DNA from: Actinomycetota bacterium
GTDB lineage: Bacteria; Actinomycetota; Nitriliruptoria; Nitriliruptorales; JAHWKO01
NCBI GenBank assembly: GCA_019347855.1
Contig: JAHWKO010000046.1
Coordinates: forward strand, 1-18,422
DNA length: 18,422 bases
Direction: 5' to 3'
Part shown: positions 2,962 through 17,396 of the stretch, in pieces
Layout: every line of letters starts with the position of its first letter
Position numbering within the stretch: position 1 is the first letter of the stretch
Translations under genes and position numbers: made by a program
The notes under the pieces: generated by a model
The model's input: only the letters and a program-made list of their open reading frames with translations
Databases searched by the model: none
Told to the model about the DNA's origin: nothing

Positions 2962-3004
2962 CCGGCTCGTCCCGTTCTCCCTCGAGGCGAGCCGAGGGTA
3001 GTGC

Positions 3005-3592
3005 TCAGGGTTCGAAGAGCCCGAGCTTCGCGGCCTCCGCGACGGCCCCCGCGCGGTTGCGTACCCCCAGCTTGTCGTAGAGCTCCTGCGCGTAGGCCTT
3101 GACGGTGCGCTCGGTCACGCCGAGCTGGTCGCCGATCTCGCTGTTGGTCATCCCCTCGGCCATGAGCTCGAGGACCTGCTGCTGACGGGGCGACAGGTGC
3201 GGACCGGACTCCACCTTCGGGATCTCGAGGACCATCGTGGCGTCCTCGTGCGCCGCGGCCATCGCCGGATCCTCGAACACGGCGTCAACGGGACCGAAGG
3301 CGACCCGGTCCCCGTGCCGGAGCACACGGGGCCCGACGATCTCCTCGCCGTTCACCTTCGTGCCGGCGCTGCTCCCGAGGTCGGTGACGATGACCGCCCC
3401 GGCCTCCTTGCGGATCGAGGCGTGCACGCGCGAGACACGGGGATCCGTCAGGACGTACGCGTTGTCCTCACGGCGCCCCAACGTGGCGTCGTCGTGCTCC
3501 AGCGCGATGGACGACCCGGCCTCGGGGCCGCTGCGGATCGTGAGCGTCGGGAGCGGCACGACCTTGCGTGCCTTCTGGACCGCTTCCCCCAC
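3005..3592 (-). CDS. FHA domain-LuxR-type HTH fusion transcriptional regulator
   Basis: A 195-residue two-domain protein. The N-terminal FHA domain (about 16-108) carries the diagnostic LGR (38-40), SRVH (54-57) and GSSAGTKVNG (73-82), which form the phosphothreonine-binding pocket. A linker (about 109-131) contains ATMVLEIP, which could itself be a Ser/Thr-kinase target. The C-terminal GerE/LuxR helix-turn-helix (about 132-195) contains LSPRQQQVLELMAEGMTN and the recognition helix around TERTVKAY. Inference: a Ser/Thr protein kinase signal is read by the FHA part and converted to DNA binding, replacing the usual receiver domain. The start is a GTG with a strong GAGGAGGG ribosome site 7 bases upstream (3600-3607). 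The regulator is probably first in a unit with the ParA-like gene; target genes are unknown. Confidence 0.93.
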   Translation of the reverse strand: MGEAVQKARKVVPLPTLTIRSGPEAGSSIALEHDDATLGRREDNAYVLTDPRVSRVHASIRKEAGAVIVTDLGSSAGTKVNGEEIVGPRVLRHGDRVAFGPVDAVFEDPAMAAAHEDATMVLEIPKVESGPHLSPRQQQVLELMAEGMTNSEIGDQLGVTERTVKAYAQELYDKLGVRNRAGAVAEAAKLGLFEP

Positions 3593-3624
3593 GGGGAACC
3601 CTCCTCGTTCGGGTCCGGTGACTC

Positions 3625-3639
3625 ACCGTAACGAACGGT
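3625..3639. promoter_or_regulatory. Inverted repeat upstream of the FHA-LuxR gene
   Basis: ACCGT-N5-ACGGT lies 33-47 bases upstream of the FHA-LuxR GTG, inside the 54-bp gap after the PHP gene. The left arm, read on the minus strand, gives TACGGT, a possible -10 element. The position suits an operator for autoregulation or the core promoter. Short repeats like this can arise by chance in GC-rich DNA. Confidence 0.3.
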
Positions 3640-3646
3640 ACTCGGC

Positions 3647-4498
3647 CTAGGAGCCTTCCGGAAGCCGTTCCCGCAAGCTCGCCACCTCGTCCGGTGTCGT
3701 CGTCGCCTCCCCGATCCGCAGGTCCTTGCGGTCCCCGTGGAAGTCGGACCCGGCCGTGACGATCAGCCCGAGGTCCTCCGCGAGCCCCCGGTAGCGACGG
3801 CGATGCGCGTCGCCGTGATCGGGGTGATCCGCCTCGATGCCGGCGAGGCCGGCCGCTGCCATGTCGCGCACGACCTCGTCGTCGATCCCGGGACCCGACC
3901 GACCCCCGTCGGACGGGCCGTACAGGCCGGGGTGGGCCAGGACCGCCACCCCGCCGGCCTCGACGATCAGCCGCACGCACCGCACCGGGTCCACGGCGTA
4001 CTTCGGCACGTACGCGGGGCCGTCGTCGTGGAGGTAGCGGTCGAAGACGTCGCTGACGTCCGCGGCCGCTCCGAGCTGGACCACAGCCGTCGCGATGTGG
4101 GGCCGGCCCACCGGGGCGCCGCCAGCGATGCGGCGGACCTCGTCGATGCTCACCGGGATGTCGAGCTCGTCGTTGAAGCGCTGGACGATCTCCTCTGCCC
4201 GGCGATCGCGCTCGTTGAAGATCCGGTCCATCTCCGCGGACAGGGCCTCCTCCTCGGGATCGAACCAGTAGCCGAGGATGTGGACGCTGTAGCCGTCGAG
4301 CTCCGCGGACATCTCCGCGCCCGGGATGATCTCCAGGTCGGTGCCCTCGGCCGCCTTCCGAGCACGCTCCCAGGCAGCGGCGGTGTCGTGGTCGGTGACG
4401 CCCAGCCCCGCGAGACCGGCCTCGAGCGCCAGCTCGACGTTGTGCTCCGGCGACGTGGTGCCGTCGCTGAACGTGGTGTGCGTGTGGAGGTCGTACAT
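3647..4498 (-). CDS. PHP-domain metal-dependent phosphoesterase (RNase AM / TrpH-like)
   Basis: A 283-residue stand-alone PHP protein. Metal ligands typical of the family are visible: H5 and H7 (DLHTHTTFSDG) with D12, D36-H37-D38 (VTDHDT), E62 (PGAEMS), H73 (YSVHILGY), H134 (GRPH), H189 (VLAHPGLYG), and D252/H254 (SDFHGD). This matches the trinuclear active site of the YciV/TrpH group, which includes 5'-3' exoribonuclease RNase AM and 3',5'-nucleotide bisphosphate phosphatases. The precise substrate (short RNA, pAp or another phosphoester) is not decidable from sequence. The ATG overlaps the acyl-CoA dehydrogenase stop by one base (TGATG), so it is probably translated by coupling from that gene. 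Despite the old name trpH, nothing here links it to tryptophan synthesis. Confidence 0.92.
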   Translation of the reverse strand: MYDLHTHTTFSDGTTSPEHNVELALEAGLAGLGVTDHDTAAAWERARKAAEGTDLEIIPGAEMSAELDGYSVHILGYWFDPEEEALSAEMDRIFNERDRRAEEIVQRFNDELDIPVSIDEVRRIAGGAPVGRPHIATAVVQLGAAADVSDVFDRYLHDDGPAYVPKYAVDPVRCVRLIVEAGGVAVLAHPGLYGPSDGGRSGPGIDDEVVRDMAAAGLAGIEADHPDHGDAHRRRYRGLAEDLGLIVTAGSDFHGDRKDLRIGEATTTPDEVASLRERLPEGS

Positions 4499-5643
4499 CA
4501 GGTGAACGCCGAGACGCCGGTGAGCTGCCTGCCGAGCAGGAGCTTCTGGATCTGCGAGGTGCCCTCGTACAACGTGGTCACCCGGGCATCACGGAGCAGT
4601 CGCTGGGCCGGGTACTCGTCGATGTACCCGTAGCCGCCGTGGACCTGCACCGCCTTGTCGGCGCACCGCACCGAAGCCTCGGTGCAGAACAGCTTCGCCG
4701 TGGACGACTCCATCGTGTAGCGCTCGCCGGACTCCTTCTTGGCGGCGACCCGCTCGCAGAGGGCGCGGCCGGCCTCGACGTCCACGTGCATCTCGGCGAG
4801 GAGCTCCTGGACGAGCTGGAAGTTCGCGATCGTCTTGCCGAACTGTTCGCGCTCCTCGGCGTACCGCAGGCTCACCTCCAGGGCCTCGCGGGCGATCCCG
4901 ACGCACGCGGAAGCCAGCGAGAACCGTCCGTCGTCCAGCGCCGACAGGGCGACCTTCATCCCGCTACCGACCTCCCCCAGGACCGCGTCGTCGGGGACCC
5001 GGACGCCGTCCAGGAAGATCTCGGCGGTGTCCCCCGCACGCAGACCGAGCTTGCCGTGGATCTGACGGGCGTCGTACCCCTCGCTGTCCTGCGGGACCAG
5101 GAAGCAGGTGATCCCCCGTTCCTCGCCACTGTCGACGGCCTGCGCGAAGACCATCGTGAGGGCTCCGACGGTGCCGTTCGAGATGAAGATCTTCTGGCCG
5201 TCGATCACCCAGTCCGAGCCGTCCCTGACGGCCCGACTCGTCATCTGCGAGGGGTTGGACCCCGCGCCGGGCTCGGTCAGACCGAACGCGCCGAGCTCGC
5301 CCACCGCGAGCCGCGGCAACCACTCCTCCTGCTGCTCCTGGGTGCCCCAGCGCATCACGCTGCCCCCGACGAGTCCCACGTTGACCGAGGTCGTCGACCG
5401 CATGGACGAGTCCGCGGCGCCGAGCTCCTCCATCACGATGCGGTAGCCGTGGGCGTCGAGCCCCATGCCGCCGAGCTCCTCCGGGAACGTCGCTCCCAGG
5501 AAGCCGACGTCGGCCATCTTCGGGATGAGGTCCGGATCCCAGTGCTCGGCCCGGTCGCGCTCGGCGACCCCCGGCCTGAGCTCCCGGTCGCAGAAGTCGC
5601 GAGCGGTCTTGCGGATGGCCTCGAGCTCCGTCGCGTCGGCCAC
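4498..5643 (-). CDS. Acyl-CoA dehydrogenase
   Basis: A 381-residue FAD enzyme catalysing alpha,beta-dehydrogenation of an acyl-CoA, with electrons passed to ETF. Visible hallmarks are the flavin-site stretch GAFGLTEPGAGSNPSQM (about 118-134), the KIFISNG segment that follows it, GLRAGDTAEIFLDGVRVP, REQFGKTIANFQLVQ in the helical C-terminal domain, QVHGGYGYIDEYP, and LYEGTSQIQ. The glutamate at about 360 in the last of these is the usual catalytic base of the short/medium-chain families. Length is normal. The stretch around ADSSMRS recalls glutaryl-CoA-type members, but chain-length specificity cannot be assigned. The start is GTG with a GGAG site 5 bases upstream. It leads a unit with the PHP gene and diverges from a Nudix gene over a 38-bp shared promoter region. 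Confidence 0.95.
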   Translation of the reverse strand: MADATELEAIRKTARDFCDRELRPGVAERDRAEHWDPDLIPKMADVGFLGATFPEELGGMGLDAHGYRIVMEELGAADSSMRSTTSVNVGLVGGSVMRWGTQEQQEEWLPRLAVGELGAFGLTEPGAGSNPSQMTSRAVRDGSDWVIDGQKIFISNGTVGALTMVFAQAVDSGEERGITCFLVPQDSEGYDARQIHGKLGLRAGDTAEIFLDGVRVPDDAVLGEVGSGMKVALSALDDGRFSLASACVGIAREALEVSLRYAEEREQFGKTIANFQLVQELLAEMHVDVEAGRALCERVAAKKESGERYTMESSTAKLFCTEASVRCADKAVQVHGGYGYIDEYPAQRLLRDARVTTLYEGTSQIQKLLLGRQLTGVSAFT

Positions 5644-6237: not shown

Positions 6238-7017
6238 ATGCTGAACGTCGAACTGCTGTCGGCCGTCGTCTTCGACCACGACACGTGGGACCAGGAGACG
6301 GGGACGATCGACCCCGCGATCGTCGCCCGCGGCGAGCTGCCGGCGCGTGCCCGACCGTTCGTGGTCGACCGCGTCTACCGCGCCCCCGCCGGGCACTACG
6401 ACGAATCGTTCGCGATCATCGATCAGCACGGCCAGGTCGTCTACCAGCACGAGTACGCCCGGATCGTCCTCCGGGGTGAGATGTTCGAGGACCGCTACCG
6501 CGACACGGTGCGGGCCAACCCGGTCTTCTCCAGCGCCGACGAGCACACGATGGTCTTCCTCGTCAGCGACCAGGAGGTCGGCCGCATCCCGATCTTCGTC
6601 GACGCGCCGGACTCGGCCAAGGCCGCGGGCGTCATGAACGATGTGCTGTCCTCGACGCTGAAGAAGAGCGCGATCATCTGGCTGACGATCCCCCAGCCCG
6701 ACGGCAGCACGGTCACGCGCCCCGCCTGGTTCGTCTACCAGGACGGCAAGGTGTTCGTGCTCACTGGCCCGGACGAGCAGGACCTCACCAACATCGACCG
6801 TGCGGAGCAGGTCGAGCTCACCGCTCGCAGCAAGGACGTCCGCGCGGCGGTCGGCACGGTGCCGGCGGTGGTCCGGGTGGTGGACAACGACTCGGACGAG
6901 TTCGCCCAGATCGCGGAAGCCGGACTGTCGACCAGGCTCAACCTCGAGGACGGCCACGACGCGCTCGAGCGCTGGCGGTCCACCTGCACGATGGTGGAGC
7001 TCACCCCCCAGGACTGA
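6238..7017 (+). CDS. Uncharacterised protein, possible FMN-binding split-barrel (PPOX-like) C-terminal domain
   Basis: A 259-residue soluble protein with no signal peptide or membrane span. I do not recognise the N-terminal half (about 1-120), which is beta-rich with many acidic and aromatic residues. From about 135 onward the pattern LKKSAIIWLTIP, then VTRPAWFVYQDGKVFVLTG (159-177), then a stretch like EQVELTARSKD (190-200) resembles the strands of pyridoxamine-phosphate-oxidase-like flavin or F420 proteins. There, an R-P-x-W-F-x-x-D-G segment follows the first strand. This is a pattern resemblance only. The frame is open back to a GTG at 6109, but the sequence there is proline-rich and non-conserved-looking, and a -10 element sits within it, so I chose ATG 6238 (weak ribosome site). 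The last 17 bases overlap the convergent lipoprotein gene. Confidence 0.75.
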   Translation: MLNVELLSAVVFDHDTWDQETGTIDPAIVARGELPARARPFVVDRVYRAPAGHYDESFAIIDQHGQVVYQHEYARIVLRGEMFEDRYRDTVRANPVFSSADEHTMVFLVSDQEVGRIPIFVDAPDSAKAAGVMNDVLSSTLKKSAIIWLTIPQPDGSTVTRPAWFVYQDGKVFVLTGPDEQDLTNIDRAEQVELTARSKDVRAAVGTVPAVVRVVDNDSDEFAQIAEAGLSTRLNLEDGHDALERWRSTCTMVELTPQD

Positions 7018-7744
7018 CCCGTCGCCGCCAGACGAGGACGGCGGTGAACGCCACCACCGCTGCCCCCAGGGCGATCAGCGCTGCGATCAGCAGGGGCGGC
7101 GGTCCCGGATCTGCCGACACCGCCGAGATGGTGCGCATCTGCTCGAGGGGCGCGTGCCAGACCAGGCTGTTGCCGTCGACCTCGTGGGCGTCGTGGCTCA
7201 CGGGGGCTGCCGGCAGCGTGACCCGCACGTCGTACCGGACGAACTCGTCGCCCTGTTCCTCCAGCAGACGCTGCAGGTCGTCGGCGTCGAAGCCCACGCC
7301 GACGCCCTCGGCGCCGGGCGCCGCGGGCAGGCGCAGGCCGACGCGCCCAGACATCGCGATCGCCCCGCTGTCCCGGCGTTCGAGCTGGAGGTCCTCGTGC
7401 ACCCGAAGATCGTCCTGGTCGAGCGCGCCGTTGAGTTCGGCCGCCAGTCGCTGGAAGCCGGCGGGATCGTCGAACGACGCGCGCAGCCGCACGCCGACAC
7501 CGCCGTCCGCATCGGGCTGGCGCACGACCTCCCACTCCGGAGCCGCCGCCGAGGCCTCCTCGAGCCCCTCGAGCGGGTCCATGCCCGCGTCCTGGAGGGT
7601 GGCGGTCAGCTCCTCGTCGAGCGACACCTCGAACACGAACGTCCCGGACCCATCACGCTCGACGGTGACATCGCTCGCTAGTCGTACCTGGCACGCCGAC
7701 GCCAGCACCAGCGCCAGGCACAGCACGGACCAACGTCGCAGCAC
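7001..7744 (-). CDS. LppM-like membrane lipoprotein (DUF3153 type)
   Basis: A 247-residue exported protein. The N-terminus has two arginines, a hydrophobic stretch and a lipobox LASAC, so C18 would be lipidated. The mature part starts with short strands (VRLASDVTVERDGSGTFVFEVSLDEE), the usual opening of LppM-like domains. A hydrophobic helix (about 218-239) followed by RRR near the C-terminus gives a second membrane anchor with the tail in the cytoplasm. LppM of Mycobacterium has been connected to phagosome interaction; here only an envelope location can be claimed. The start is GTG with GAGG 5 bases upstream. It diverges from the GspE/PilB fusion gene over 144 bp, and its 3' end overlaps the uncharacterised plus-strand gene by 17 bases. 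Confidence 0.85.
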   Translation of the reverse strand: MLRRWSVLCLALVLASACQVRLASDVTVERDGSGTFVFEVSLDEELTATLQDAGMDPLEGLEEASAAAPEWEVVRQPDADGGVGVRLRASFDDPAGFQRLAAELNGALDQDDLRVHEDLQLERRDSGAIAMSGRVGLRLPAAPGAEGVGVGFDADDLQRLLEEQGDEFVRYDVRVTLPAAPVSHDAHEVDGNSLVWHAPLEQMRTISAVSADPGPPPLLIAALIALGAAVVAFTAVLVWRRRVSPGG

Positions 7745-7888
7745 GGGGACCTCGGGAACGCGAGGGAACGGACCCGGAGGCTACCGAGGGCGCTACAGGT
7801 ACCGTCGCTCGGTGCCGACCATGCTCGAGGGCCCGGTCCGGCAGGGGCCCTTCCGCGCATGCGACGACAAGGACGACAAGAGGGACGG
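7745..7888. promoter_or_regulatory. Divergent intergenic region with a leader hairpin
   Basis: This 144-bp gap holds the promoters of the lipoprotein and the GspE/PilB fusion. TAGCCT on the minus strand (7783-7778) is a -10 candidate for the lipoprotein. On the plus side, AGGGCCC (7828-7834) and GGGCCCT (7845-7851) form a perfect 7-bp stem with a 10-base loop in the expected leader, and GAGGGA (7880-7885) is the ribosome site that decides the ATG at 7889. No convincing -35 hexamer was found. Confidence 0.4.
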
Positions 7889-10240
7889 ATGGCGAAGTCA
7901 CCCACGCGGCGCCGCCTCGGCGAGATCCTGCTCGCGGCCGACGTCCTCACCGAGGAAGAGCTCGAGGACGCGCTGGCCGAGCAGGCCACACCTGGGAGCC
8001 GGGCCCGGCTCGGGACGACCGTCGTGCGCATGGGGATGGCCGACGAGGAGGACATCGTCGCAGCCCTCGCGACCCAGCTCGGGATGGACGAGGTCGACCT
8101 CGCCTCAACGGCACCCGCTCCCGAGGCGGTCGGTCGGGTCCCGAGGAACCTCGCGCACCGGCACCTGGCGCTCCCCATCCACCTCGAGGACGGGACCCTC
8201 ACCGTCGCGGTCTCCGATCCCACGAACGTGCTCGCCAAGGACGACCTGCGCGCAGCCGCCGGGGTCGACAGCATCCGGATGGTGGTCGCCAGCGAGAGCT
8301 CGATCCGGGAGGCACTGCGGCACGCGTACGGCGCCGACCAGAGCGCGCTGGACGCGCTCGGTGACGACATCCAGGTCGAGGAGCAGCACGACCTCGCCCC
8401 CGAAGACCTCGAGGGGGCGGCGGGTGCTGACGACCAGCCCATCGTCCGGCTCGCGAACCTCATCCTCGCCGAAGCCGTCCACACCCGCGCCAGCGACGTG
8501 CACGTCGAGCCGGGGCGCAACCACGTGCGGATCCGGTACCGGATCGACGGCATGCTCCGCGAGGTCATGCGTGTCCCGCGCGACGCCTCGGCGGCCCTGA
8601 CCTCCCGTCTCAAGATCATGGCGCGGCTCGACATCGCCGAGCGGCGGCGCCCCCAGGACGGCCGCACCGTCGTGAAGGTCGAAGGCCAGGAGGTCGACCT
8701 GCGCGTGTCGACCCTGCCGACGATGTTCGGCGAGACCGTCGTGCTCCGGCTGCTCCGCAAGGGCGTCGAGCAGCTCGAGATCGACGAGGTCGGCCTGAGC
8801 CCGGACCAGATGGCCCAGTACCGATGGGCGCTCGACCGGCCGCAGGGACTGATCATCATCACCGGGCCGACCGGATCCGGGAAGACCACGACGCTGTACA
8901 CCGGCCTGAACGAGATCGCCGACCCGGTGCGCAACATCGTCACGCTCGAGGACCCGATCGAGTACCAGCTCGAGGGCGTCAACCAGACCCAGATCCACGA
9001 GAAGGTCGGCCTGACCTTCGCCCGGGGGCTGCGCAGCGTGTTGCGACAGGACCCCGACGTCGTGCTGGTCGGCGAGGTCCGCGACGAGGACACCGCCGCG
9101 CTCGCGATGCAGGCATCGTTCACCGGTCACCTCGTGCTCACGACCCTGCACACCAACGACGCCCCGTCCTCGATCGTGAGGCTGCTCGACCTCGGGGTCG
9201 AGCCGTTCCACATCGCCTCGTCGCTGCTACTGGTCGTCTCGCAGCGGCTGATCCGGATCACCTGCGACAGGTGCGCGGAGCCCTACGAGCCCGAGGACCG
9301 CACGTTGTCGATGCTCGGGCTCACCCGGGCGGACATCGCAGACGGCACCCTCCTGCGCGGCACGGGGTGCGAGATCTGCGGCCGCACCGGCTTCCGGGGC
9401 CGCGAGGGCATCTTCGAGATGCTGCCGGTCACCGCGTCGGTACGGGAGCTGCTCATGGAGGGCGCGACCGAGATCCAGCTAGCACGCCTCGCCAGGGCCG
9501 AGGGCATGCGCACGCTGCGGGAAGACGGCATCCGCGCGGCGCTCGAGGGCAGGACCACCCTCGAGGAGGTCCTGCGGGTCACCCCCTCCGAGACGCTGAC
9601 GACCCACCGCTGTGCCGAGTGCGGCCACCAGATCGCCGAGGGCTTCGTGGCGTGCCCGCAGTGCGGGAACGCGCTGGGGGTCGAGGCGTGCCGCGAGTGC
9701 GGACGACACCTCGAGAGCAGCTGGCGCATCTGTCCGTACTGCCGGAGTCCCGTCAAGCGTCGCCGCGAGGACGACGATCCCGTCCGGATCGAGGGTCCCG
9801 AGGAGCCGCGCCCACCCGAGATCAGTGGGAACGGGGGGCCCGCCCCGATCGAGGAACGCCCCCTGCCGATCGTGCTCGTCGTCGACGACGACCAGGCGAT
9901 CCGCGAGCTCGTCGGCCTGATGCTCGTGGACGACTACGACGTGCTCGAAGCGGCCAACGGCGAGGAAGCGATCGAGATGGCCAAGCGCCACCGGCCGGAC
10001 GCGGTCGTCCTCGACCTCCGGCTCCCCGACATGTCCGGGGTCGAGGTGACCCGCGCGCTGCGCTCCGACGAGGCCACCCGCTGGATACCGATCCTGATGA
10101 TCACCGGCGAGGAGAACACCGAACGCGAGGTCGAGAGCCTCGTCGCAGGCGTGGACGACTACCTCCTGAAGCCGGTGAACGACGACGTGCTCCGCGGGCG
10201 CCTCACGGCGGCACGCCGACGCGCCACGACCGGCCCCTGA
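7889..10240 (+). CDS. GspE/PilB-type secretion or pilus ATPase fused to zinc ribbons and a response-regulator receiver domain
   Basis: A 783-residue protein of unusual composition. Residues about 5-150 form the MshEN/T2SSE N-terminal domain (GEILLAADVLTEEEL). The ATPase core has an Asp-box region (ASDVHVEPG), Walker A GPTGSGKT (326-333), Walker B VVLVGEVRDE (391-400), a His box (TTLHTNDA) and the PilB/GspE tetracysteine zinc site C459/C462/C494/C497. All of this is normal. After residue 570 come two added four-cysteine ribbons (C575/C578/C589/C592 and C601/C604/C615/C618), an acidic proline-rich linker, and a full CheY-like receiver (about 659-780) with D666/D667, phospho-acceptor D709, T739 and K761. 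Inference: phosphorylation tunes assembly or extrusion of type IV pili or a related system. No pilC, pilT, pilin or histidine kinase lies beside it. ATG 7889 is preferred over ATG 7859 because only it has a ribosome site. Confidence 0.95.
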   Translation: MAKSPTRRRLGEILLAADVLTEEELEDALAEQATPGSRARLGTTVVRMGMADEEDIVAALATQLGMDEVDLASTAPAPEAVGRVPRNLAHRHLALPIHLEDGTLTVAVSDPTNVLAKDDLRAAAGVDSIRMVVASESSIREALRHAYGADQSALDALGDDIQVEEQHDLAPEDLEGAAGADDQPIVRLANLILAEAVHTRASDVHVEPGRNHVRIRYRIDGMLREVMRVPRDASAALTSRLKIMARLDIAERRRPQDGRTVVKVEGQEVDLRVSTLPTMFGETVVLRLLRKGVEQLEIDEVGLSPDQMAQYRWALDRPQGLIIITGPTGSGKTTTLYTGLNEIADPVRNIVTLEDPIEYQLEGVNQTQIHEKVGLTFARGLRSVLRQDPDVVLVGEVRDEDTAALAMQASFTGHLVLTTLHTNDAPSSIVRLLDLGVEPFHIASSLLLVVSQRLIRITCDRCAEPYEPEDRTLSMLGLTRADIADGTLLRGTGCEICGRTGFRGREGIFEMLPVTASVRELLMEGATEIQLARLARAEGMRTLREDGIRAALEGRTTLEEVLRVTPSETLTTHRCAECGHQIAEGFVACPQCGNALGVEACRECGRHLESSWRICPYCRSPVKRRREDDDPVRIEGPEEPRPPEISGNGGPAPIEERPLPIVLVVDDDQAIRELVGLMLVDDYDVLEAANGEEAIEMAKRHRPDAVVLDLRLPDMSGVEVTRALRSDEATRWIPILMITGEENTEREVESLVAGVDDYLLKPVNDDVLRGRLTAARRRATTGP

Positions 10241-10342: not shown

Positions 10343-11452
10343 ATGCCCACCGCAGAGCAGGTCCGCGAGGCGCTGGCCGGCGTCCAGGACCCCGACATCG
10401 ACAAGCCCGTCACCGAGCTCGGGCTGGTCGACCACGTCGTCGTCGACGAGGGGACGGTGCGGCTGCGTTACAACCTCACGATCCCGGGTGAGCAGCAGCA
10501 GCGCCAGGTCGACGCGGAGATCCGTCAGGTCCTGCGGTCGCTCGATGGCGTCTCCGAGGTGGACATCTCCTGGGAGGCACTGTCCGACGACCGCCGCGCC
10601 GACCTCGCGCACCGTCTGCGCGCCGAGCGCGGGCAGACCGACGACGAGATCATCTTCTCGAAGCCGGGGAACCGGACCAAGGTCATCTCGATCGCGTCGG
10701 GCAAGGGTGGTGTGGGCAAGTCCTCGGTGACCGTGAACCTCGCCGCGGCGCTCGCCGACGAGGGGCACGTCGTCGGGGTCCTCGACGCGGACATCTACGG
10801 CTACTCGGTGCCGCGCATGCTCGGCGTCTCGGGCCGTCCCGTGGGCATGGAGGGGCTCGTCATGCCCCTGCGGGCCCACGGCTGCAAGGTGATCTCGATC
10901 GGGTTCTTCCTGCCCGACCCGGACAAGCCCGTGATGTGGCGCGGCCCCATGCTGCACCGGGCGCTCCAGCAGTTCCTCTCGGACGTCTACTGGGGCGACC
11001 TCGACTTCCTGCTGTGCGACCTGCCGCCCGGGACCGGCGACATCGCGATCTCGCTGGGTCAGATGCTGCCGACCTCCGACCTGATCGTCGTGACCACCCC
11101 GCAGGAGGCCGCGCAGAAGGTCGCGATCCGCGCGGGGCAGATGGCCGAGGAGACGGGGATGATCGTCTCCGGGGTCGTCGAGAACATGGCCGGCTTCACG
11201 TGCCCCGACTGCGGATCCCACCACGACATCTTCGGCAGCGGGGGTGGCGAGGAACTGGCTGCGGAGCTCGACACCGACCTCCTGGGCAGGGTCCCGATCG
11301 ACGTGCGTCTGCGTGAGGGCGGCGATCACGGGGTCCCCCTGGTCCTCAGCCATCCCGAGGTCCCGGCAGCGACCGCGCTGCGTGACGTCGCGGCCGGCAT
11401 CGCACGCCGCGCCCGCTCGGTGGTCGGCAAGCAGCTGCCGATCACGGGCTGA
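10343..11452 (+). CDS. mrp: Mrp/ApbC-family iron-sulfur cluster carrier ATPase
   Basis: A 369-residue cytosolic ATPase that binds and transfers [4Fe-4S] clusters to apo-proteins. The N-terminal MIP18/DUF59 domain (about 1-90, VQDPDIDKPVTELGLVDHV) lacks an obvious cysteine. The P-loop domain has SGKGGVGKSS (119-128), DADIYGYSVPRML, WRGPMLHRALQQF, LCDLPPGTGD (224-233) and TTPQEAA. The CPDC pair (287-290) is the dimer-bridging cluster site. Length and architecture are standard. In mycobacteria mrp lies a few genes from tatB of the sigE cluster and converges with it, and the same arrangement is seen here. The PQQ-propeller gene starts 8 bases after the stop. Confidence 0.96.
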   Translation: MPTAEQVREALAGVQDPDIDKPVTELGLVDHVVVDEGTVRLRYNLTIPGEQQQRQVDAEIRQVLRSLDGVSEVDISWEALSDDRRADLAHRLRAERGQTDDEIIFSKPGNRTKVISIASGKGGVGKSSVTVNLAAALADEGHVVGVLDADIYGYSVPRMLGVSGRPVGMEGLVMPLRAHGCKVISIGFFLPDPDKPVMWRGPMLHRALQQFLSDVYWGDLDFLLCDLPPGTGDIAISLGQMLPTSDLIVVTTPQEAAQKVAIRAGQMAEETGMIVSGVVENMAGFTCPDCGSHHDIFGSGGGEELAAELDTDLLGRVPIDVRLREGGDHGVPLVLSHPEVPAATALRDVAAGIARRARSVVGKQLPITG

Positions 11453-11460
11453 TCCCGCCG

Positions 11461-12810
11461 GTGGCGCGCTGTCGCGAGTGCGGCACCGAGCAGGACACCG
11501 GCCGCTTCTGCGGGCACTGCGGGGCGGCCCTCCCCTCGGGACGACCCGCGAGCGGGGCACCGGACGGCGACGACGGGTCCGAGCTGGCCACGACCAGCGC
11601 GCCGTCATGGTGGCGCTGGACCGCAGGCGCCGTCGTGGCGGTCGCCGTAGGTATCGCGGTCGCGTTCCAGGGCAGCTCCGTGGACCGGTCAGCAGCACCC
11701 GACCAGGGCCGCGCGCAGCCGACATCGGCGTCGGCCTCCCCCCAGAGCGGTCCGCCACCGCTGCCGACCACGGTCCCGGGGAGCTGCCCGGATGCGGTCG
11801 TGGGGTGCGTCCTGTGGCGTACGGACCTCACGGGCGCCACCTCGATCACCGTGCCCGTCGCCGGCCGGGACCCGCGGCACGCGTACCTGGGCGCGGTCCT
11901 GCCCGACGGCGGAGGGGCGCTCTACGCGATCGACCCGGCGAACGGGATCCAGCTGTGGCGTCGCCGGTTGCCGGGCCCCCCACGCGCTCCGATCGTCACC
12001 CCCTGGGGGGCGGTGGTGGTCGCCTACGACGACCCGAGGGCCGGGTCAGGGCTGCGGTCGTACAACCCGGACACCGGCGAGCTCGGCTGGCAGGCGGAAG
12101 GCGCGCTGGCGGGACGGACCACCGCGGGTCCCGTCGTCGCGGGGCGGACCGTCGCGTCCGCAGGACCGCGGCAGTTCATGCTCCACCACCAGGACACCGG
12201 CGCGGTCACCCTGATCGAGATCGACGGGACGCCGGCGGCGATGCTCGGCGGCGGTGACGGCGACGCAGCGACGTTCCTCGTGCTGATGGACGACGGCGTG
12301 CGCGCCTACGCCACGGATGGCTCGACCCGTTGGACCTCCACGGCGTCGACCATGGGGACCACGATGCCCGACGGCCGGACGGTGCTGGTCGAACCGCCCG
12401 ACCAGGTCGTCGGCATCGCCGGAGCACGCGGCGAGGTCTGGCGTCGCACTCTCGACATCCTGGCGATCCCGCCCGTCGTCGCCGGGTCCGAAGCCCTGCT
12501 GAGCGCTCCCGACGGATCCTTGATCCGACTGTCGCTGGAGGACGGGACCGACCTCGGACGCGTCGACCTCGACGAGGGGCTCGTCAGTGGCCCGTTCAGC
12601 ATCGACGGAGGGACCGCCTTCCTGCCCGCCTGTGGCGGGGTGACCGCGATCACCCTCGCGACCGGCGAGGAGGTCTTCGCGACCGGGCTCCCCTCGGGGC
12701 CGACGGCGTGCGGGGACCTCCCCACCGTCGTCCCGGGAGAGGGCGGTCCACTGCTCGTCGGGACCGGCACCCGGCTGCACGGCCTGATCCGCGCGTCGTC
12801 ACTCCCGTAG
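11461..12810 (+). CDS. Zinc ribbon-TM-PQQ-like beta-propeller membrane protein
   Basis: A 449-residue protein. A four-cysteine ribbon at the extreme N-terminus (C4, C7, C17, C20) is followed by a Gly/Ser/Asp linker, one transmembrane helix (about 51-70, WRWTAGAVVAVAVGIAVAF), a Pro/Ser-rich spacer, then about 330 residues of repeated blades. Blade signatures include LYAIDPANGIQLWRRRLPG, LRSYNPDTGELGWQAEG, VRAYATDGSTRWTS, VVGIAGARGEVWRR and VTAITLATGEEVFATG. These have the A-x-D/D-G-x-x-x-W pattern of PQQ/BamB-like propellers. The expected topology is ribbon inside, propeller outside. Such propellers often act as scaffolds rather than dehydrogenases, and no enzyme motif is seen. GTG 11461 is chosen because it keeps the ribbon intact, though no good ribosome site precedes it, suggesting coupling to mrp. 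Its 3' end overlaps the convergent PAP2 gene by 12 bases. Confidence 0.87.
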   Translation: MARCRECGTEQDTGRFCGHCGAALPSGRPASGAPDGDDGSELATTSAPSWWRWTAGAVVAVAVGIAVAFQGSSVDRSAAPDQGRAQPTSASASPQSGPPPLPTTVPGSCPDAVVGCVLWRTDLTGATSITVPVAGRDPRHAYLGAVLPDGGGALYAIDPANGIQLWRRRLPGPPRAPIVTPWGAVVVAYDDPRAGSGLRSYNPDTGELGWQAEGALAGRTTAGPVVAGRTVASAGPRQFMLHHQDTGAVTLIEIDGTPAAMLGGGDGDAATFLVLMDDGVRAYATDGSTRWTSTASTMGTTMPDGRTVLVEPPDQVVGIAGARGEVWRRTLDILAIPPVVAGSEALLSAPDGSLIRLSLEDGTDLGRVDLDEGLVSGPFSIDGGTAFLPACGGVTAITLATGEEVFATGLPSGPTACGDLPTVVPGEGGPLLVGTGTRLHGLIRASSLP

Positions 12811-13392
12811 CTCGCCGACGATCAGCCGCCAGGTCGCTCCGCTGAGCCCACCGAGGCCCAGTCCGGCCACGACGTCGGTCGGGTAGTGCACCCCCACGTA
12901 CACGCGGCTCGCCGCGACGAACATCGCGAGCGATCCTCCAGCCACGCCGCCCCCCGGCGGGAGGTGCGGGACCAGCACCGTCGCCACCGCCGCGGCAACC
13001 GCCGGGTGACCGCTGGGGAAAGACGAGCCAGCGGGCTCCGAGACCAAGCGCTCGGCCTCCTCGACCTGGTAGGGACGCGGCCGTTTGACGATCCGCTTCA
13101 TCGCCTGGGCCGCCGCCCACGCCAGTGACCCGGCGACGAAGGTGTCCACGGCCGCGCGGCGTCGCCCGGTGAGCGCCAGCACCGCAGCCAGCCCCGACAC
13201 GGCGAACACCGACCCGAGGTCGGTGGCGGACGACACCACCGTGTCGACGACCGGCCCACGGGGACGGCGCATCCGGACCGCCAGGGCCCGCTCGCGCTCC
13301 TCGAGCACCGCCGAGCGCATCGCGAACCAGGAGGCACCGATCGCGCCCAGCGCGGCGGCGACCACACCCGTGGCCTTGTACCGACGGCGCAC
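12799..13392 (-). CDS. PAP2-superfamily membrane phosphatase
   Basis: A 197-residue multi-pass membrane protein with all three phosphatidic-acid-phosphatase-2 signatures: KRIVKRPRP (99-107), PSGH (126-129) and SRVYVGVHYPTDV (142-154). The motif-2 and motif-3 histidines and the aspartate needed for the phosphohistidine mechanism are present. Likely substrates are lipid phosphates such as undecaprenyl pyrophosphate or phosphatidic acid, acting on the outer face of the membrane. About five hydrophobic segments are visible. The GTG start overlaps the tatB stop by one base (TAGTG), making it the last gene of the sigE-type operon. A role in recycling lipid carriers during envelope stress would fit, but this is inference. 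Confidence 0.92.
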   Translation of the reverse strand: MRRRYKATGVVAAALGAIGASWFAMRSAVLEERERALAVRMRRPRGPVVDTVVSSATDLGSVFAVSGLAAVLALTGRRRAAVDTFVAGSLAWAAAQAMKRIVKRPRPYQVEEAERLVSEPAGSSFPSGHPAVAAAVATVLVPHLPPGGGVAGGSLAMFVAASRVYVGVHYPTDVVAGLGLGGLSGATWRLIVGELRE

Positions 13393-13712
13393 TACGTGGC
13401 CTCGGGATCGGTGGGTGGCGGGGTGCGTCGCGGACGTGGCATCGACGAGGGCCCGTCCTGATGAGGCGAGGTGGCCGAGGTCAACTCACGCCCCACATCA
13501 CGCAACTCGTCACGCATCGAACGCAGCTCACGGTCCAGGTCCTCGAGCTCCGCGGCCTTCTTGAGCTCCGCCATGCTCTTGGACGTCTCCTCGCGGAACC
13601 GCGAGATGAACCGTCCGGCCTGCTGGGCGAGCTCCGGGAGCCGGTCCGGGCCGAAGACCAGCAGCGCGACGACCGCGATCACCAGGAGTTCGGGGAAGCC
13701 GAGGTTGCCCAC
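13392..13712 (-). CDS. tatB: Sec-independent protein translocase subunit TatB (TatA/B family)
   Basis: A 106-residue protein with an N-terminal membrane helix (about 7-21, FPELLVIAVVALLVFGP), the hallmark FGPDRLPELA hinge, an amphipathic helix (about 25-52) and a charged, proline-rich tail. TatB helps TatC receive twin-arginine substrates. The FGPDRLPE sequence and the length favour TatB over TatA, and the position directly after htrA in a sigE cluster matches mycobacterial tatB. No tatC is in the window. It starts 36 bases after the htrA stop and overlaps the PAP2 gene by one base. Confidence 0.92.
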   Translation of the reverse strand: MGNLGFPELLVIAVVALLVFGPDRLPELAQQAGRFISRFREETSKSMAELKKAAELEDLDRELRSMRDELRDVGRELTSATSPHQDGPSSMPRPRRTPPPTDPEAT

Positions 13713-13748
13713 CTGGTTCGCGCTCCGGGTCCGTGTGCGGGTCCGAGC

Positions 13749-15095
13749 CTAAAGGTCGAACTCGCCGAGCGTGACCTCGACCTCGATCCGCTCCCCGCCC
13801 CGCACGAGCTCGAGCAGGATCGTCTCCCCAGGCTCACGCGCCTGGATCTGGGCGACCAGCTGATCGAAGGTCTCGATCGTCTCACCGCCCGCGGACACGA
13901 TGACGTCGCCCGGTTCGACACCCGCCTGCGCCGCGGGACCGCCCTCCTCGACGGTCGCCACCAGCGCGCCCGTGCGGACGTCCAGCCCGAACTCGCGGAT
14001 CGCAGCGGCGGTCACGTCGGTCCCACTGATCCCCAGCCTGGCGTGTCGCACGACGCCGTCCTCGATGAGGGTGTCGACGACGGTCACCATCGTGTCCGAC
14101 GGGATCGCGAAGCCCACGCCCACGTTGCCGGCCTGCTGACCGGGGCCGGTGGTCGACAGGATCGCGGAGTTGATGCCGATCAGCCGGCCCTCGGCGTCCA
14201 CCAGCGCCCCGCCGGAGTTTCCGGGGTTGATCGCGGCGTCGGTCTGGATCACCCCCGTGAGCGGGATGAAGCCCTGCTCCCCTCCCGTGGTGATGGGGAT
14301 CTCGATGCTGCGGTTCAGCGCGGACACGACGCCGGCGGTCACGGAGGCGTCGAGACCGAACGGGCTGCCGATCGCGACCGCCGGCTCGCCGACGTCGGGG
14401 TCCTCCGTCCGCACGTTGATCGCGGGCAGCCCCGTGCGTTCCACCCTGACCACCGCCAGGTCGGTCAGCGGGTCCGTCCCGACGACCTCCGCGGTCACGG
14501 ACTCACCGTCGGCGAACTTCACCTCGAGCTCCTCGGCCCCCTCGACCACGTGGTTGTTGGTGACGATGTAGCCGTCCGACCGGTAGATCACGCCCGAGCC
14601 GAGCCCCTGCGGCTCCGCGATCCCTCCCTGGACGACCAGCCGGTCGATCCGGACGACGCTCGGGGTGACCGCCTGGGCGACCGCCTCGACGGAGGTCAGC
14701 CGACCGTCCCCTTCGCCCTGCACCACCTGGGGTGCCTGCACCTGCTCGATCACCTGCGGCGCGGTGCGCGCGAGGGTGAGCGTGCCAGCGGTCCCGAGGA
14801 CGGCACCGACCAGCGCACCGAGCAGCGCGGTCGCCATCCCCCGGCGGCCGGGCCGCGACGGGGCGTCGACCGTGCCCGTCGTGTCGGGCGGCCGGACCGA
14901 GCCCGCGGGGGAACCGGGGCCGTCGCGTTCCTCGTCCCACGAGGACGGGGGCGCCTGCGGGGCGGCGGGGCGCGGGCCCTCGGTCGTCACGCTGCCGGAG
15001 CGGCCCCGGGCGTACGCGGGGAGGTCGGCCCGGTCTCCCCCGGGCCGTTCCCACTCGCCGGTGCGGTCGTCGTCGTCCATCTGGTCCTCGTTCAT
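13749..15095 (-). CDS. htrA: HtrA/DegP-like membrane-anchored serine protease with PDZ domain
   Basis: A 448-residue S1C protease. A long disordered, acidic cytoplasmic N-terminus (1-86) leads to one transmembrane helix (about 87-109). The protease domain follows, with triad H182 (TNNHVVEG), D212 (DPLTDLAVV) and S294 (GNSGGAL), and then a PDZ domain (about 352-445, starting ARLGISG, with GGPAAQAGVEPGDVI). It degrades or refolds misfolded proteins outside the membrane and may cleave the anti-sigma factor. ATG 15095 is chosen because it overlaps the RseB-like gene's stop by 4 bases (ATGA). The frame is open to 15254, but that extension is arginine-rich and antisense-like. Architecture matches mycobacterial HtrA1 in the same position of the sigE locus. 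Confidence 0.95.
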   Translation of the reverse strand: MNEDQMDDDDRTGEWERPGGDRADLPAYARGRSGSVTTEGPRPAAPQAPPSSWDEERDGPGSPAGSVRPPDTTGTVDAPSRPGRRGMATALLGALVGAVLGTAGTLTLARTAPQVIEQVQAPQVVQGEGDGRLTSVEAVAQAVTPSVVRIDRLVVQGGIAEPQGLGSGVIYRSDGYIVTNNHVVEGAEELEVKFADGESVTAEVVGTDPLTDLAVVRVERTGLPAINVRTEDPDVGEPAVAIGSPFGLDASVTAGVVSALNRSIEIPITTGGEQGFIPLTGVIQTDAAINPGNSGGALVDAEGRLIGINSAILSTTGPGQQAGNVGVGFAIPSDTMVTVVDTLIEDGVVRHARLGISGTDVTAAAIREFGLDVRTGALVATVEEGGPAAQAGVEPGDVIVSAGGETIETFDQLVAQIQAREPGETILLELVRGGERIEVEVTLGEFDL

Positions 15096-16165
15096 CCGAA
15101 GGGCCACAGCCACCCGCCCACGCGACGCAGGCCGCGACGCAGGCGCGTCAAGGGGCCTGGTGCCGGGTCGTGCGGGAGGGCAGCGAGCGTCTCGTGGAGC
15201 ACACCCAGCGGGGCGTCGCTCACGGCGGTGTAGGTCCGGTCGTCGCCGGTCCACACCACCGTCGCGGGCTCCGCGCCGGGCCAGCGGTACACGTGCATCC
15301 TGCCGAGTGTGGCGGGTCGGGCGCCACGTGCCATCACCGCGGAACCGTCCAGGCGGCCGTCCTGCTGGTAGATCGACACCGCGTAGAGCCCGTCGGAGTA
15401 GAGCAGGTGCAGCGACGAGGAGCCCTCCTCGCCCAGCGCGGCCGCATCCAACAGCCCGTACCCGCCGGGCAGCTCGTGCGGCGCGACCCAGCCGATGTCG
15501 CGGAGGATCTCCACGGCGTCCTCGTTCATCTCGGTCTTGTCGGCCTCGTTCCCCTCGTTCCAGACCGCGGTGTCCTCGATGTCGGGCACCCGCCCGGGGT
15601 TGAGGTCGAGCGACGTGAACGCCACCAACCGGATCGGGACCCCGCCCTCGCCGTAGGTCTCGCGGCGCACGATCAGGCCACTGCCCGGGTCGATGAACAG
15701 GCGCTCCCGCAGCTCGCCGTCCTCGCGGACCGCGATCACCCGCGCCTCACCGAGCACCGTCGTGCCCTCCCCCTCGAACCCAACGTCGTACTTGTCGTCG
15801 AGGCGGTCGAGGCTGAAGCCGGTCTGCTCGACGCTGCCGAGGCGCAGGAGCGACCCCGAGTCGGCGTCCCCGAAGAAGGTCCGTCCCCGTTCGCGTCCCA
15901 GGACCCACGCGGCGGACGCGGACGTCATCAGCGCCCCGGTGGCGTCCTGTGTCACGGTGACCTCGCCGATCACCGGGGCGTCGGCGTCGAACGACACGAC
16001 CACGAGCCGCCCTTCGAACGGCCGCCGCTGGCCCTCCTCGACCGCCCGTTCCAGGAGATCGCGCCAGGACGCGGTCTGCGCCTGCGCGGGCGCCACCGTG
16101 GCCACGACGACGAGCAGGACGAGCACCCGAGCGACCGTGCCCGCCGGGCGTCCACCACCAGGCAT
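15092..16165 (-). CDS. RseB/MucB-like exported regulator of sigma-factor activity
   Basis: A 357-residue protein with a signal peptide (1-30, hydrophobic core LVLLVVVATV, ending AQAQ). The N-terminal two-thirds are a beta-rich, lipoprotein-carrier-like domain (EGRLVVVSFDADAPV onward, then ERLFIDPGSGLIVRRET, as in MucB/RseB and LolA relatives). The smaller C-terminal part contains YSDGLYAVSIYQQDG (256-270), which corresponds to the SDGL-x-x-x-SVF signature of RseB. In Proteobacteria RseB binds the anti-sigma factor RseA and shields it from protease until lipid or misfolded protein signals arrive. Here it starts immediately after the anti-sigma gene with zero spacing and overlaps htrA by 4 bases, supporting the same job. 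It may instead be a LolA-like lipid-binding protein. Confidence 0.85.
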   Translation of the reverse strand: MPGGGRPAGTVARVLVLLVVVATVAPAQAQTASWRDLLERAVEEGQRRPFEGRLVVVSFDADAPVIGEVTVTQDATGALMTSASAAWVLGRERGRTFFGDADSGSLLRLGSVEQTGFSLDRLDDKYDVGFEGEGTTVLGEARVIAVREDGELRERLFIDPGSGLIVRRETYGEGGVPIRLVAFTSLDLNPGRVPDIEDTAVWNEGNEADKTEMNEDAVEILRDIGWVAPHELPGGYGLLDAAALGEEGSSSLHLLYSDGLYAVSIYQQDGRLDGSAVMARGARPATLGRMHVYRWPGAEPATVVWTGDDRTYTAVSDAPLGVLHETLAALPHDPAPGPLTRLRRGLRRVGGWLWPFG

Positions 16166-16609
16166 CTAGCGACCGAGGTCCACGGGCGTGAGGACCGGTC
16201 CTCCCTCCATGCGGGCGACGTGGTCGACCACGAAGACGTCGACCGGTGGCCTGACCGTGCCGGGGTCGTCGGTGCCGGCCGCGAACGCGGCGATCCCGAG
16301 CAGGAGCGCGGAGGCCACGGCCGCCGCCACCACCCGAACGACGATCGATCGGCGCCGACCGGTGGACGTGGGCTGTGCCAGCACGTTCCGGTAGAGGTCC
16401 TCCGGGGGTTGCACGTCCGGCAGGTTCCGCAGTGCCCCGCGGGCCTGGCGGATCGCCTCGAGCTCCTCGAGGCACGAGGGGCACCCGGCCACGTGGTGCG
16501 TGACCTCGAGCGATTCGCCCTCGGAGAGCTCGTCGTCGAGGAACGCGGACAGGCGCTCCTCCTCGTGGTCGTCCCCGAACGGCCACCAGCCGGCGGGACG
16601 GTCACGCAT
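16166..16609 (-). CDS. Transmembrane zinc anti-sigma factor (RseA-like)
   Basis: A 147-residue protein. The cytoplasmic part (1-87) has the ZAS motif H39-x3-C43-x2-C46 (THHVAGCPSC) in an acidic helical context (RLSAFLDDELSEGE), typical of zf-HC2 anti-sigma domains that sequester ECF sigma factors. One membrane helix follows (about 88-112) after RRR, with a 35-residue extracytoplasmic tail. ATG 16609 is chosen because the ZAS domain begins there and the codon overlaps the sigma stop by 8 bases. The frame is open to 16738, but that extension merely runs antisense through sigma coding. It holds the preceding sigma factor inactive until damaged or proteolysed. It is the RseA counterpart of the mycobacterial locus, where RseA is also a ZAS protein. 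Confidence 0.92.
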   Translation of the reverse strand: MRDRPAGWWPFGDDHEEERLSAFLDDELSEGESLEVTHHVAGCPSCLEELEAIRQARGALRNLPDVQPPEDLYRNVLAQPTSTGRRRSIVVRVVAAAVASALLLGIAAFAAGTDDPGTVRPPVDVFVVDHVARMEGGPVLTPVDLGR

Positions 16610-17198
16610 CGTCGGACCCCCCGTCCAGCAGTCGGTCACGGAGCTGCTTGCGGCCGCGGTGGATCCGGGAACGCACCGTGCCGAGCGGCCAGCCGGTCGC
16701 CTCGGAGATCTCCTCGTAGGAGAGGCCCTGGACGTCACAGAGCACCACGGCGGTGCGGAAATCCGGAGGCAGGGAGCGCAGCGCGACCTCGATGTCGCCC
16801 CGCAGCAGCCCCTGTTCGAGCCGGTCCTGCGGACCGGGCGCGGGCTCCGGGGTCTGCTTCCACTCCTCGTCGGGCAGCGGCTCGATGATCGCCCGCTTGC
16901 GCTTGCGCACCTTGTCCAGGAACAGGTTCTTGGTGACGCGGTACAGCCAGCCCTCGAAGGTGCCCGGTTCGTACTTGTCGAGGTTGCGGTAGACGCGCAC
17001 GAACACGTCTTGCGTGAGGTCCTTGGCCTCGTCCGGGTCCCCCGTCAGCCGGTAGGCGATGCTGTAGATCTTGCGTCCGTAGGTGTGGGCGACCTCGTCC
17101 CAGGTCGGCACGGGGTCCTTGTCGGGGTACTCGGGACCGACCGACGTGCCCGGACGAGGGCGTGGCTCGTCGAACGTCGTGAAGTGGTCATCCGCCAC
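16602..17198 (-). CDS. sigE: ECF sigma factor, SigE-like (envelope stress)
   Basis: A 198-residue sigma-70 family protein of ECF type. Region 2 (about 33-100) contains SIAYRLTGDPDEAKDLTQDVFVRVY and the TFEGWLYRVTKNLFLDKVRKRKR segment that contacts the -10. Region 4 (about 127-190) contains LPPDFRTAVVLCDVQGLSYEEISEATG and GTVRSRIHRGRKQLR, the -35-reading helix-turn-helix. Region 3 is absent, as expected. The frame extends to ATG 17357, but an ECF promoter lies downstream of that codon. I therefore chose GTG 17198, which has GGGAG 6 bases upstream; another GTG at 17237 remains possible. The order O-methyltransferase / sigma / zinc anti-sigma / htrA / tatB is the mycobacterial sigE (Rv1220c-Rv1224) order, the basis for the gene symbol. 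Confidence 0.93.
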   Translation of the reverse strand: MADDHFTTFDEPRPRPGTSVGPEYPDKDPVPTWDEVAHTYGRKIYSIAYRLTGDPDEAKDLTQDVFVRVYRNLDKYEPGTFEGWLYRVTKNLFLDKVRKRKRAIIEPLPDEEWKQTPEPAPGPQDRLEQGLLRGDIEVALRSLPPDFRTAVVLCDVQGLSYEEISEATGWPLGTVRSRIHRGRKQLRDRLLDGGSDDA

Positions 17199-17204
17199 GG
17201 CGTT

Positions 17205-17209
17205 CTCCC
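17205..17209 (-). promoter_or_regulatory. Ribosome-binding site deciding the sigE start
   Basis: GGGAG on the minus strand sits 6 bases before the GTG at 17198. The in-frame upstream ATG at 17357 lies before the predicted promoter, so it cannot be used from that transcript. Confidence 0.6.
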
Positions 17210-17284
17210 GCGTCTGGTCCGCATCCAGGGTAACCACGGGGTGCGTCGCGCCCTCCTGCTGTTGGCCGGCTGTCCGCTGCACCC

Positions 17285-17310
17285 AACGTGGTGTGGAAGG
17301 TCGGTGTTCC
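17285..17310 (-). promoter_or_regulatory. ECF-type promoter, probable sigE autoregulation
   Basis: Read on the minus strand, GGAACA (17310-17305) is followed by exactly 16 bases and then CGTT (17288-17285). This is the GGAAC-N16/17-CGTT pattern recognised by many ECF sigma factors, including the SigE/SigH groups. Transcription would begin near 17277, giving a leader of about 79 bases before GTG 17198. It is the only such match I found upstream of the operon. Confidence 0.7.
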
Positions 17311-17362
17311 CGGTGGCACCGCGCACATCCTGCGCGCCCTACGCGCGCTTCCGGCATGCTGG

Positions 17363-17389
17363 TAGCGTTCGCCGGTGCCTATCGAGGGG
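17363..17389 (+). promoter_or_regulatory. -10 element and ribosome site of the O-methyltransferase gene
   Basis: TAGCGT (17363-17368) is a plausible -10, and GAGGGG (17384-17389) is a clear ribosome site 7 bases before ATG 17397. No good -35 is visible. The gap of 198 bp to sigE (17199-17396) holds both divergent promoters. Confidence 0.45.
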
Positions 17390-17396
17390 TTCTGCG

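Follow-up and report, generated by a model that had tools for sequence, protein, structure and literature searches.

How does a motor gene of the type IV pilus kind come to carry, in its own reading frame, a receiver domain of the kind used in two-component signalling, and what might such a protein do? The question is raised by a contig of 18,422 nucleotides from an Actinomycetota bacterium of the Nitriliruptorales (JAHWKO010000046.1, assembly GCA_019347855.1; the whole contig is called the window here), on which positions 7889-10240 of the forward strand encode a 783-amino-acid protein in one stop-free frame. As judged from its sequence and from those of its relatives, this is a real, conserved architecture inside a known family. 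With moderate confidence we read the gene product as an extension ATPase for type IV pili, PilB/MshE-like and gated by signals, and the gene as a paralogue lying outside the pilus operon. The reading as a second extension motor draws on its domains and motifs, on PilB structure and family matches, on the conservation of the receiver, on the repeat arginines and the GGDEF matches reported below, on canonical PilB and PilC encoded elsewhere, on receiver-bearing PilBs in Desulfobacterota, and on the precedent of TfpB, which together with PilB forms two extension motors on one pilus in Acinetobacter baylyi, according to the available text of PMC8213720.

The motor and its added domains

The Pfam order from the N to the C terminus is MshEN, T2SSE, DZR (double zinc ribbon) and Response_reg, each match exceeding its own cut-off. 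The gene and its parts are as follows.

7889..10240, forward strand: pilB-type gene, MshEN-T2SSE ATPase-double zinc ribbon-receiver, 783 amino acids (translation, Pfam, homologs)
7901..8344, forward strand: MshEN (cyclic di-GMP-type) N-terminal region, residues 5-152, with repeat motifs at 9-32 and 40-63 (Pfam, consensus test)
8426..9577, forward strand: T2SSE / PilB-type ATPase, residues 180-563, including K332, E396, H414 and H421 (Pfam, NCBIfam, PDB and Foldseek matches)
9263..9379, forward strand: tetracysteine usual for PilB and GspE, C459, C462, C494 and C497 (homolog alignment)
9611..9742, forward strand: extra double zinc ribbon, residues 575-618, eight cysteines (Pfam DZR)
9872..10201, forward strand: CheY-like receiver, residues 662-771, phospho-acceptor D709 at 10013-10015 (Pfam Response_reg)

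The ATPase matches T2SSE over residues 180-563 (E 4e-136), with Walker A, the Walker B/catalytic glutamate and the His box all found in the domain (motif residues G326, G331, K332, T333, E354, D355, G395, E396, R398, H414 and H421). MshEN (residues 64-152) scores 79.3 bits against a cut-off of 23.1, DZR (residues 575-618) 36 bits against 27.3, and Response_reg (residues 662-771) 96.6 bits against 30.2. The ribbon cysteines are C575, C578, C589, C592, C601, C604, C615 and C618, and the receiver holds the phosphorylation set D666, D667, D709, T739 and K761, with tyrosine at residue 758, three before the lysine. The listed open reading frame opens with an ATG at 7859; the start at 7889 fits the starts of homologs better. 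The initial annotation had described a complete motor running on into extra ribbons and an intact receiver, and translation, Pfam and alignment bear it out on the ATPase motifs, the tetracysteine, the ribbons and the receiver residues. It had overlooked the N-terminal MshEN domain of the cyclic di-GMP (c-di-GMP) type, a second possible input to the motor. The sequence supports a genuine motor of the PilB type, extended by two further zinc ribbons and by a receiver whose key residues are intact.

The best NCBIfam family is PilB (TIGR02538; 607.1 bits, under its cut-off of 675.65), with GspE (TIGR02533) at 582.6 bits, likewise under its cut-off (630.25). TfpB gives 466.2 bits and does not reach its cut-off of 850, and PilT, at 175 bits, lies far below PilB and GspE. 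Neither the tetracysteine nor the MshEN/N1 domain is known from PilT. An identity as a TadA/Flp ATPase, the label in some homolog records, is ruled out, the best families being PilB and GspE. The receiver is closest to PleD and PhoB among NCBIfam families. The top PDB sequence match is PilB (6olj, E 5.4e-154, spanning residues 8-567), and PilB/PilF extension motors rank first in Foldseek when queried with an AlphaFold model built on a 36-row alignment (mean predicted local distance difference test score, pLDDT, 84.7; predicted template modelling score 0.53). The model is confident in the N-domain, the ATPase and the receiver; it does not fix the relative placement of the domains, since the zinc-ribbon blocks have a pLDDT of about 51-62 and the linkers 149-181 and 625-656 fall below 50.

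A protein search scored 8000 candidates and listed the best 120, one of them the window protein itself; because the list is ranked by likeness to the query, fractions among the 119 non-self homologs do not gauge how frequent the fusion is. The alignment covers the receiver in 116 of the 119, and 112 of these 116 hold the full D/E-D/E-D-T/S-K set, the exceptions being P0059 and P0075, in which D709 is replaced by A, P0018, which has E for K, and the truncated P0088. Conservation of the phospho-acceptor, which had been put up for checking, is confirmed: D709 is D in 114 homologs, A in two and a gap in three. The tetracysteine (C459, C462, C494, C497) is C in 119/119, and the ribbon positions are C or H at seven or more of the eight in 103/119 and C at all eight in 80/119. 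Three homologs lack the receiver, namely P0005, P0024 (which stops after the ribbon) and P0030 (which stops after the ATPase). PF13860, which we take to be FlgD_ig, appears in the precomputed domain list of homologs P0055, P0063 and P0085. When the tail alone (residues 566-783) was used as query, kinases or regulators made up the majority of the best 120 matches, among which P0004, P0006, P0112, P0010 and P0011 bear T2SSE besides the window protein.

Could an assembly or frame error have joined a pilB to a response-regulator gene? The window is a single whole contig of 18422 bases, which leaves room for such an artefact, but the same single-frame order stands on many separate contigs at 46-66% identity, including Actinomycetota records from metagenome-assembled genomes, and recurs in genomes sampled from the class and the phylum, described below. 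The homolog records include names from Nitriliruptorales, Egibacteraceae, Frankiaceae, Mycobacteriales and Actinomycetota (marked as metagenome-assembled). Relatives with the same frame on independent contigs rule the artefact out, and we give it next to no credence.

The orphan branch, its tails and its counterparts in Desulfobacterota

From the fetched loci we read 80 distinct PilB-type frames. Leaving out one short piece and three short duplicate rows gave 76 ATPase domains for a midpoint-rooted tree, some of them on long branches. The tree splits into 44 rows that we call orphan, the window among them, and 32 that we call canonical PilB, a name that stands for the other branch. None of the 32 canonical rows has a receiver or an extra ribbon, and matches of the PilT and PilC types occur no more than about 10 kb from canonical PilB (for example in genomes G413, G407, G119, G345, G318, G163 and G063). 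When 12 Desulfobacterota rows and six rows from other genomes are added in a second tree, the 44 orphan rows remain a single branch (support 100/99). The fusion protein is no isolated curiosity: it belongs to an orphan PilB branch whose tails vary.

The tails of the 44 rows are DZR-receiver (DZR-REC) in 12, DZR in 13, receiver (REC) in four and none in 15. The tested ATPase motif residues and the tetracysteine are identical in 44/44 rows, all eight ribbon cysteines are present in 25/25 DZR-bearing rows, and the receiver residues are intact in 14/16 receiver-bearing rows. The two failures are near-identical rows of G407 and G163, genomes in which two orphan genes are neighbours: one copy has a degenerate receiver without ribbon (DPSNATR at the seven tested positions, lacking the phospho-acceptor), and the other has ribbon and receiver intact. 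Neighbouring orphan pairs were seen at L168:8157-12696 and L116:7685-12374, and in L168 a gene for an AMP-binding enzyme lies between the pair and mrp. DZR-REC tails occur in the early-branching G243, G047 and G222 and in both large sub-branches, so this tail is probably ancestral and the receiver was lost repeatedly; repeated gain is the alternative, and the polarity depends on midpoint rooting of a tree with some long branches.

PilB-receiver fusions are a minority architecture. The phylum sample comprised 396 genomes from the phylum of G270, which had in turn been sampled from that of the Streptomyces genome G001. With two candidates scored per genome, a PilB-like match at E <= 1e-50 was found in 248/396, and among the matches listed at least five genomes (G243, G047, G270, G222, G163) reach the receiver end of the profile; direct reading of the frame adds a receiver in G014. 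Within the class of G270, 9/66 genomes have a match reaching the receiver (G412, G413, G270, G397, G402, G407 and G163; partially G398 and G401).

The architecture is not limited to Actinomycetota, a restriction ruled out by receiver-bearing PilBs among 395 genomes from the phylum to which G430, the source of a Desulfamplus contig, belongs; we take this phylum to be Desulfobacterota. There a match at E <= 1e-200 was found in 206/395 genomes, at least five of which reach the receiver end among the matches listed; in the same listed matches, PilB-type motors that extend through the double zinc ribbon are much more numerous than those that reach the receiver. Twelve regions were fetched. Direct reading shows one-frame PilB-DZR-REC in G887 and in G1191, PilB-REC in G1126, and REC-PilB-DZR in G929, where the receiver is N-terminal and a separate receiver frame lies beyond the stop. 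In G908 (L237:8789-12715) the PilB frame ends at a stop and the frame after it encodes two receivers and a hybrid histidine kinase, and the remaining 7/12 regions are PilB-DZR without a receiver. All 12 rows fall outside the orphan branch in the second tree, G1126 and G929 on long branches, so the Desulfobacterota fusions are most simply explained as joined separately.

In G929 the motor gene belongs to a series of genes on one strand (L239:8340-17141), encoding in order a histidine kinase, a receiver protein, a receiver-HD_5 protein, a small GTPase, a HATPase kinase, the motor (REC-MshEN-T2SSE-DZR) and a receiver. The small GTPase (Pfam Arf, 28.9 bits) is presumably MglA-like, and HD-GYP motifs were not found in the HD_5 protein. 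Elsewhere, 0/398 Pseudomonadota genomes matched at E <= 1e-200, a threshold too strict to show absence; in ten genomes of other phyla no match covered the whole stretch between ATPase and receiver end, nothing matched in viral contigs, and in a single-protein contig scan, judged by match ranges alone, 0 of 80 listed rows spanned ATPase and receiver.

Chromosomal neighbourhood and pilus machinery

The window reads, in order, DEAD-box helicase, a small open reading frame without family, ParA, FHA-LuxR, PHP phosphoesterase, acyl-CoA dehydrogenase, NUDIX, PNPOx-like (below cut-off) and LppM, then the pilB-type gene, followed by Mrp, a PQQ-repeat protein, PAP2, TatA/B-like, HtrA, RseB-like (below cut-off), a small open reading frame, SigE and an integrase. 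The nearer neighbours are:

7001..7744, reverse strand: LppM-domain protein, divergent neighbour (Pfam LppM, 28.2 bits, cut-off 27)
10343..11452, forward strand: Mrp/ApbC-type iron-sulfur carrier ATPase, directly downstream of the pilB-type gene (family match)
11461-12810: PQQ-repeat protein, encoded between the mrp and PAP2 genes, with a weak zinc ribbon at its N terminus
12799..17357, reverse strand: PAP2, TatA/B-like, HtrA-like protease, RseB-like (below cut-off), small open reading frame and SigE-type sigma factor (family matches)
17379-18422: integrase core (rve) frame, adjoining sigE and cut by the contig end

No pilC, pilT or kinase gene is among the window open reading frames scanned with Pfam and NCBIfam, and to that extent the description of the gene as standing alone holds; it lies, however, in a conserved neighbourhood, between an lppM-like gene and mrp. 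Using the window proteins as queries and excluding the window itself, we found mrp on the same strand and at most 2 kb downstream in 20/30 orphan rows with at least 1.5 kb of sequence there, as opposed to 0/22 canonical rows. Among rows with 8 kb of downstream sequence, HtrA follows in 12/16 orphan rows, TatB in 11/16 and SigE in 6/16, compared with 0/12 canonical rows each; the rows are related, so these counts are not independent. The ten orphan rows lacking a near mrp comprise G047, G222, G043, G227 and G399 (none), G040 (opposite strand), and G401, both G163 copies and one G407 copy (separated by intervening genes). Genes of the lppM type adjoin many orphan-branch rows, and the PQQ-repeat protein clustered with no open reading frame of the relatives' loci.

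Control by the neighbouring SigE was considered and rejected: the extracytoplasmic-function (ECF)/SigE-type promoter pattern, which we take to be GGAAC-N14-18-GTT, occurs at window positions 30, 1752 and 17285 and not before the pilB-type gene. In G047, a HATPase kinase and a LuxR-type regulator lie opposite the fusion gene on the other strand. The gene upstream of the fusion in G243 has the HD-GYP motifs HDVGK and HHERWDGRGYP; at this locus (L117) the HD-GYP-motif protein spans 665-2554 and PilB-DZR-REC 2612-5386, its tail extending beyond the receiver.

Pilus machinery was sought in 35 draft genomes of the class with a tree-placed orphan, counting T2SSF matches of 100 bits or more as PilC-type. 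Such a match is present in 20/35. G407, G119, G227, G052, G248 and G063, which have megabase contigs and are the six most contiguous, all encode canonical PilB and PilC-type T2SSF together, away from the orphan. The best-scoring genome, G412, has a PilT-like ATPase, as assigned by protein size and score, with neither PilC nor a second PilB found. PilT-like ATPases with shared neighbours occur at L180, L181 and L182 (G397, G402 and G412), where no PilC-type T2SSF was found; at L182 the neighbours are a Ser/Thr kinase and a PolyA_pol-type enzyme (Pfam).

Function, and comparison with known systems

As a pilus extension motor, the protein would form the usual PilB hexamer and dock on a PilC platform encoded elsewhere. 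A histidine kinase, also encoded elsewhere, would phosphorylate D709, and c-di-GMP may act at the N-domain. The zinc ribbons could provide a rigid or protein-binding link on the C-terminal side of the ATPase, and phosphorylation would alter ring conformation, receiver pairing or recruitment to the machine. Where a canonical PilB is present, the orphan might then serve the same platform as an additional extension motor, used conditionally.

The MshEN consensus for c-di-GMP, as given in the available text of PMC5013675, consists of two 24-residue repeats, the first arginine stacking on guanine. In each repeat we tested the positions R, L, G, G, L, L and Q. The window protein has R9, Q32, R40 and Q63. 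R9 is found in 35/42 orphan and 9/33 canonical rows, R40 in 43/43 aligned orphan rows and 1/33 canonical rows (S in 25), and Q63 in 38/42 and 20/33. At least one repeat fits the relaxed consensus in 35/44 orphan rows (two repeats in 13) versus 4/33 canonical rows, and the strict consensus in 3/44 versus 1/33; among the 119 homologs the relaxed consensus fits twice in 23, once in 83 and never in 13. GGDEF matches occur in 22/22 genomes searched. The arginine contrast favours a nucleotide site in orphan PilBs; the glutamine of motif I, considered below, does not. A fuller proposal, which we advance tentatively and with more doubt than the motor reading itself, is that the Actinomycetota orphan branch is gated at opposite ends by c-di-GMP and by receiver phosphorylation, as a conditional second motor beside a canonical PilB blind to c-di-GMP, and that Desulfobacterota acquired such wiring independently, in one case inside a complete two-component gene cluster.

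Several observations weigh against a signal-gated pilus motor. In the window protein, residue 18 of motif I is D where G is conserved, and its repeats fit the strict consensus nowhere and the relaxed one in motif II alone. Q32 is kept in 8/42 orphan rows versus 19/33 canonical rows; R9 and Q32 are termed pivotal in MshE in the available text of PMC12943098. No kinase gene was found adjoining the pilB-type gene of the window. The receiver is missing from 28/44 orphan rows and is thus dispensable for whatever the motor does, and homolog P0005 (68% identity, 660 amino acids, on a 2878-base contig) ends in the linker before the receiver, perhaps truncated by its contig. No PilC-type T2SSF match was found in 15/35 orphan-bearing drafts; four of these (G379, G300, G419, G418) have a second PilB, and the 11/35 with neither suggest that the orphan may be the sole PilB there, or may serve no pilus.

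That last prospect leads to a different function, in which the orphan PilB is no longer a pilus motor and instead is a signalling or envelope ATPase, perhaps acting with its lppM, mrp, tatB, htrA and sigE neighbours, with phosphorylation and possibly c-di-GMP as inputs. The conserved synteny with envelope-stress-type genes fits this, as do the genomes with neither PilC nor a second PilB, and in Myxococcus xanthus PilB is reported as an exopolysaccharide signalling protein (available text of PMC5544727). We nevertheless consider it unlikely, though the more serious of the competing accounts: the catalytic residues tested, those of an extension motor, do not vary across the orphan rows, the six most contiguous genomes also have the pilus operon, the shared synteny may reflect vertical inheritance alone, and no match to the SigE-type pattern precedes the gene. 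More improbable still is a receiver that serves structure or localisation without a phosphorylation switch. The many receiver-less orphan rows and the degenerate receiver in one copy of G407 and G163 would suit such a role, and FimX offers a parallel: its receiver lacks a phospho-acceptor, yet is reported to matter for localisation, its deletion having mislocalised pilus assembly (available text of PMC11656802). However, the phosphorylation set is complete in nearly all homolog receivers, the second copy in G407 and G163 has an intact one, and the G929 relative sits within a two-component gene cluster.

If the preferred reading as a signal-gated extension motor is right, the ATPase ring, with its built-in receiver, would itself become a phosphorelay output, and one enzyme would perhaps integrate c-di-GMP and phosphorylation. 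A second PilB beside a canonical one also bears on how several motors share one pilus platform. The orphan branch offers a natural series for testing what the receiver contributes, because it includes all tail states (DZR-REC, DZR, REC, none), often at one chromosomal place.

A PilB/GspE ATPase carrying a receiver is not described in the literature searched, the scope of which stops short of supplements and most subscription journals, nor in the available text of PMC10333796, PMC3244431, PMC6060248 and PMC7288161. The available text of PMC5013675 notes that MshEN also combines with REC and other domains, and names no PilB-type ATPase with a receiver. In the available text of PMC11656802, a review of PilB control, two-component control of extension runs through separate proteins and second messengers; the words 'receiver' and 'fused' are absent from it, and its REC passages concern FimX. 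PilG/PilH, PdeR and FimX, treated there, likewise bring a two-component-type input, but with the receiver on another protein. TfpB resembles the orphan in accompanying canonical PilB as a further extension ATPase that is phylogenetically separate from it, and differs in that no receiver or extra zinc ribbon is described for it in the available text of PMC8213720, where 'response regulator' does not occur.

MshE and the other MshEN receptors of PMC5013675, as far as its available text goes, share the two N-terminal repeats with their first arginine, although motif I of the window protein has D for G. Geobacter PilB and Thermus PilF have the same MshEN-ATPase-tetracysteine arrangement and 47-49% ATPase identity (Foldseek); compared with them, the window protein adds a double zinc ribbon and a receiver, has no adjoining pilus gene that we found, and scores below the NCBIfam PilB cut-off. 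The Desulfobacterota PilB-DZR, PilB-DZR-REC, PilB-REC and REC-PilB-DZR proteins (among them G887, G1191, G1126 and G929) join like domains to a PilB-type ATPase, and differ in standing outside the 44-row orphan branch.

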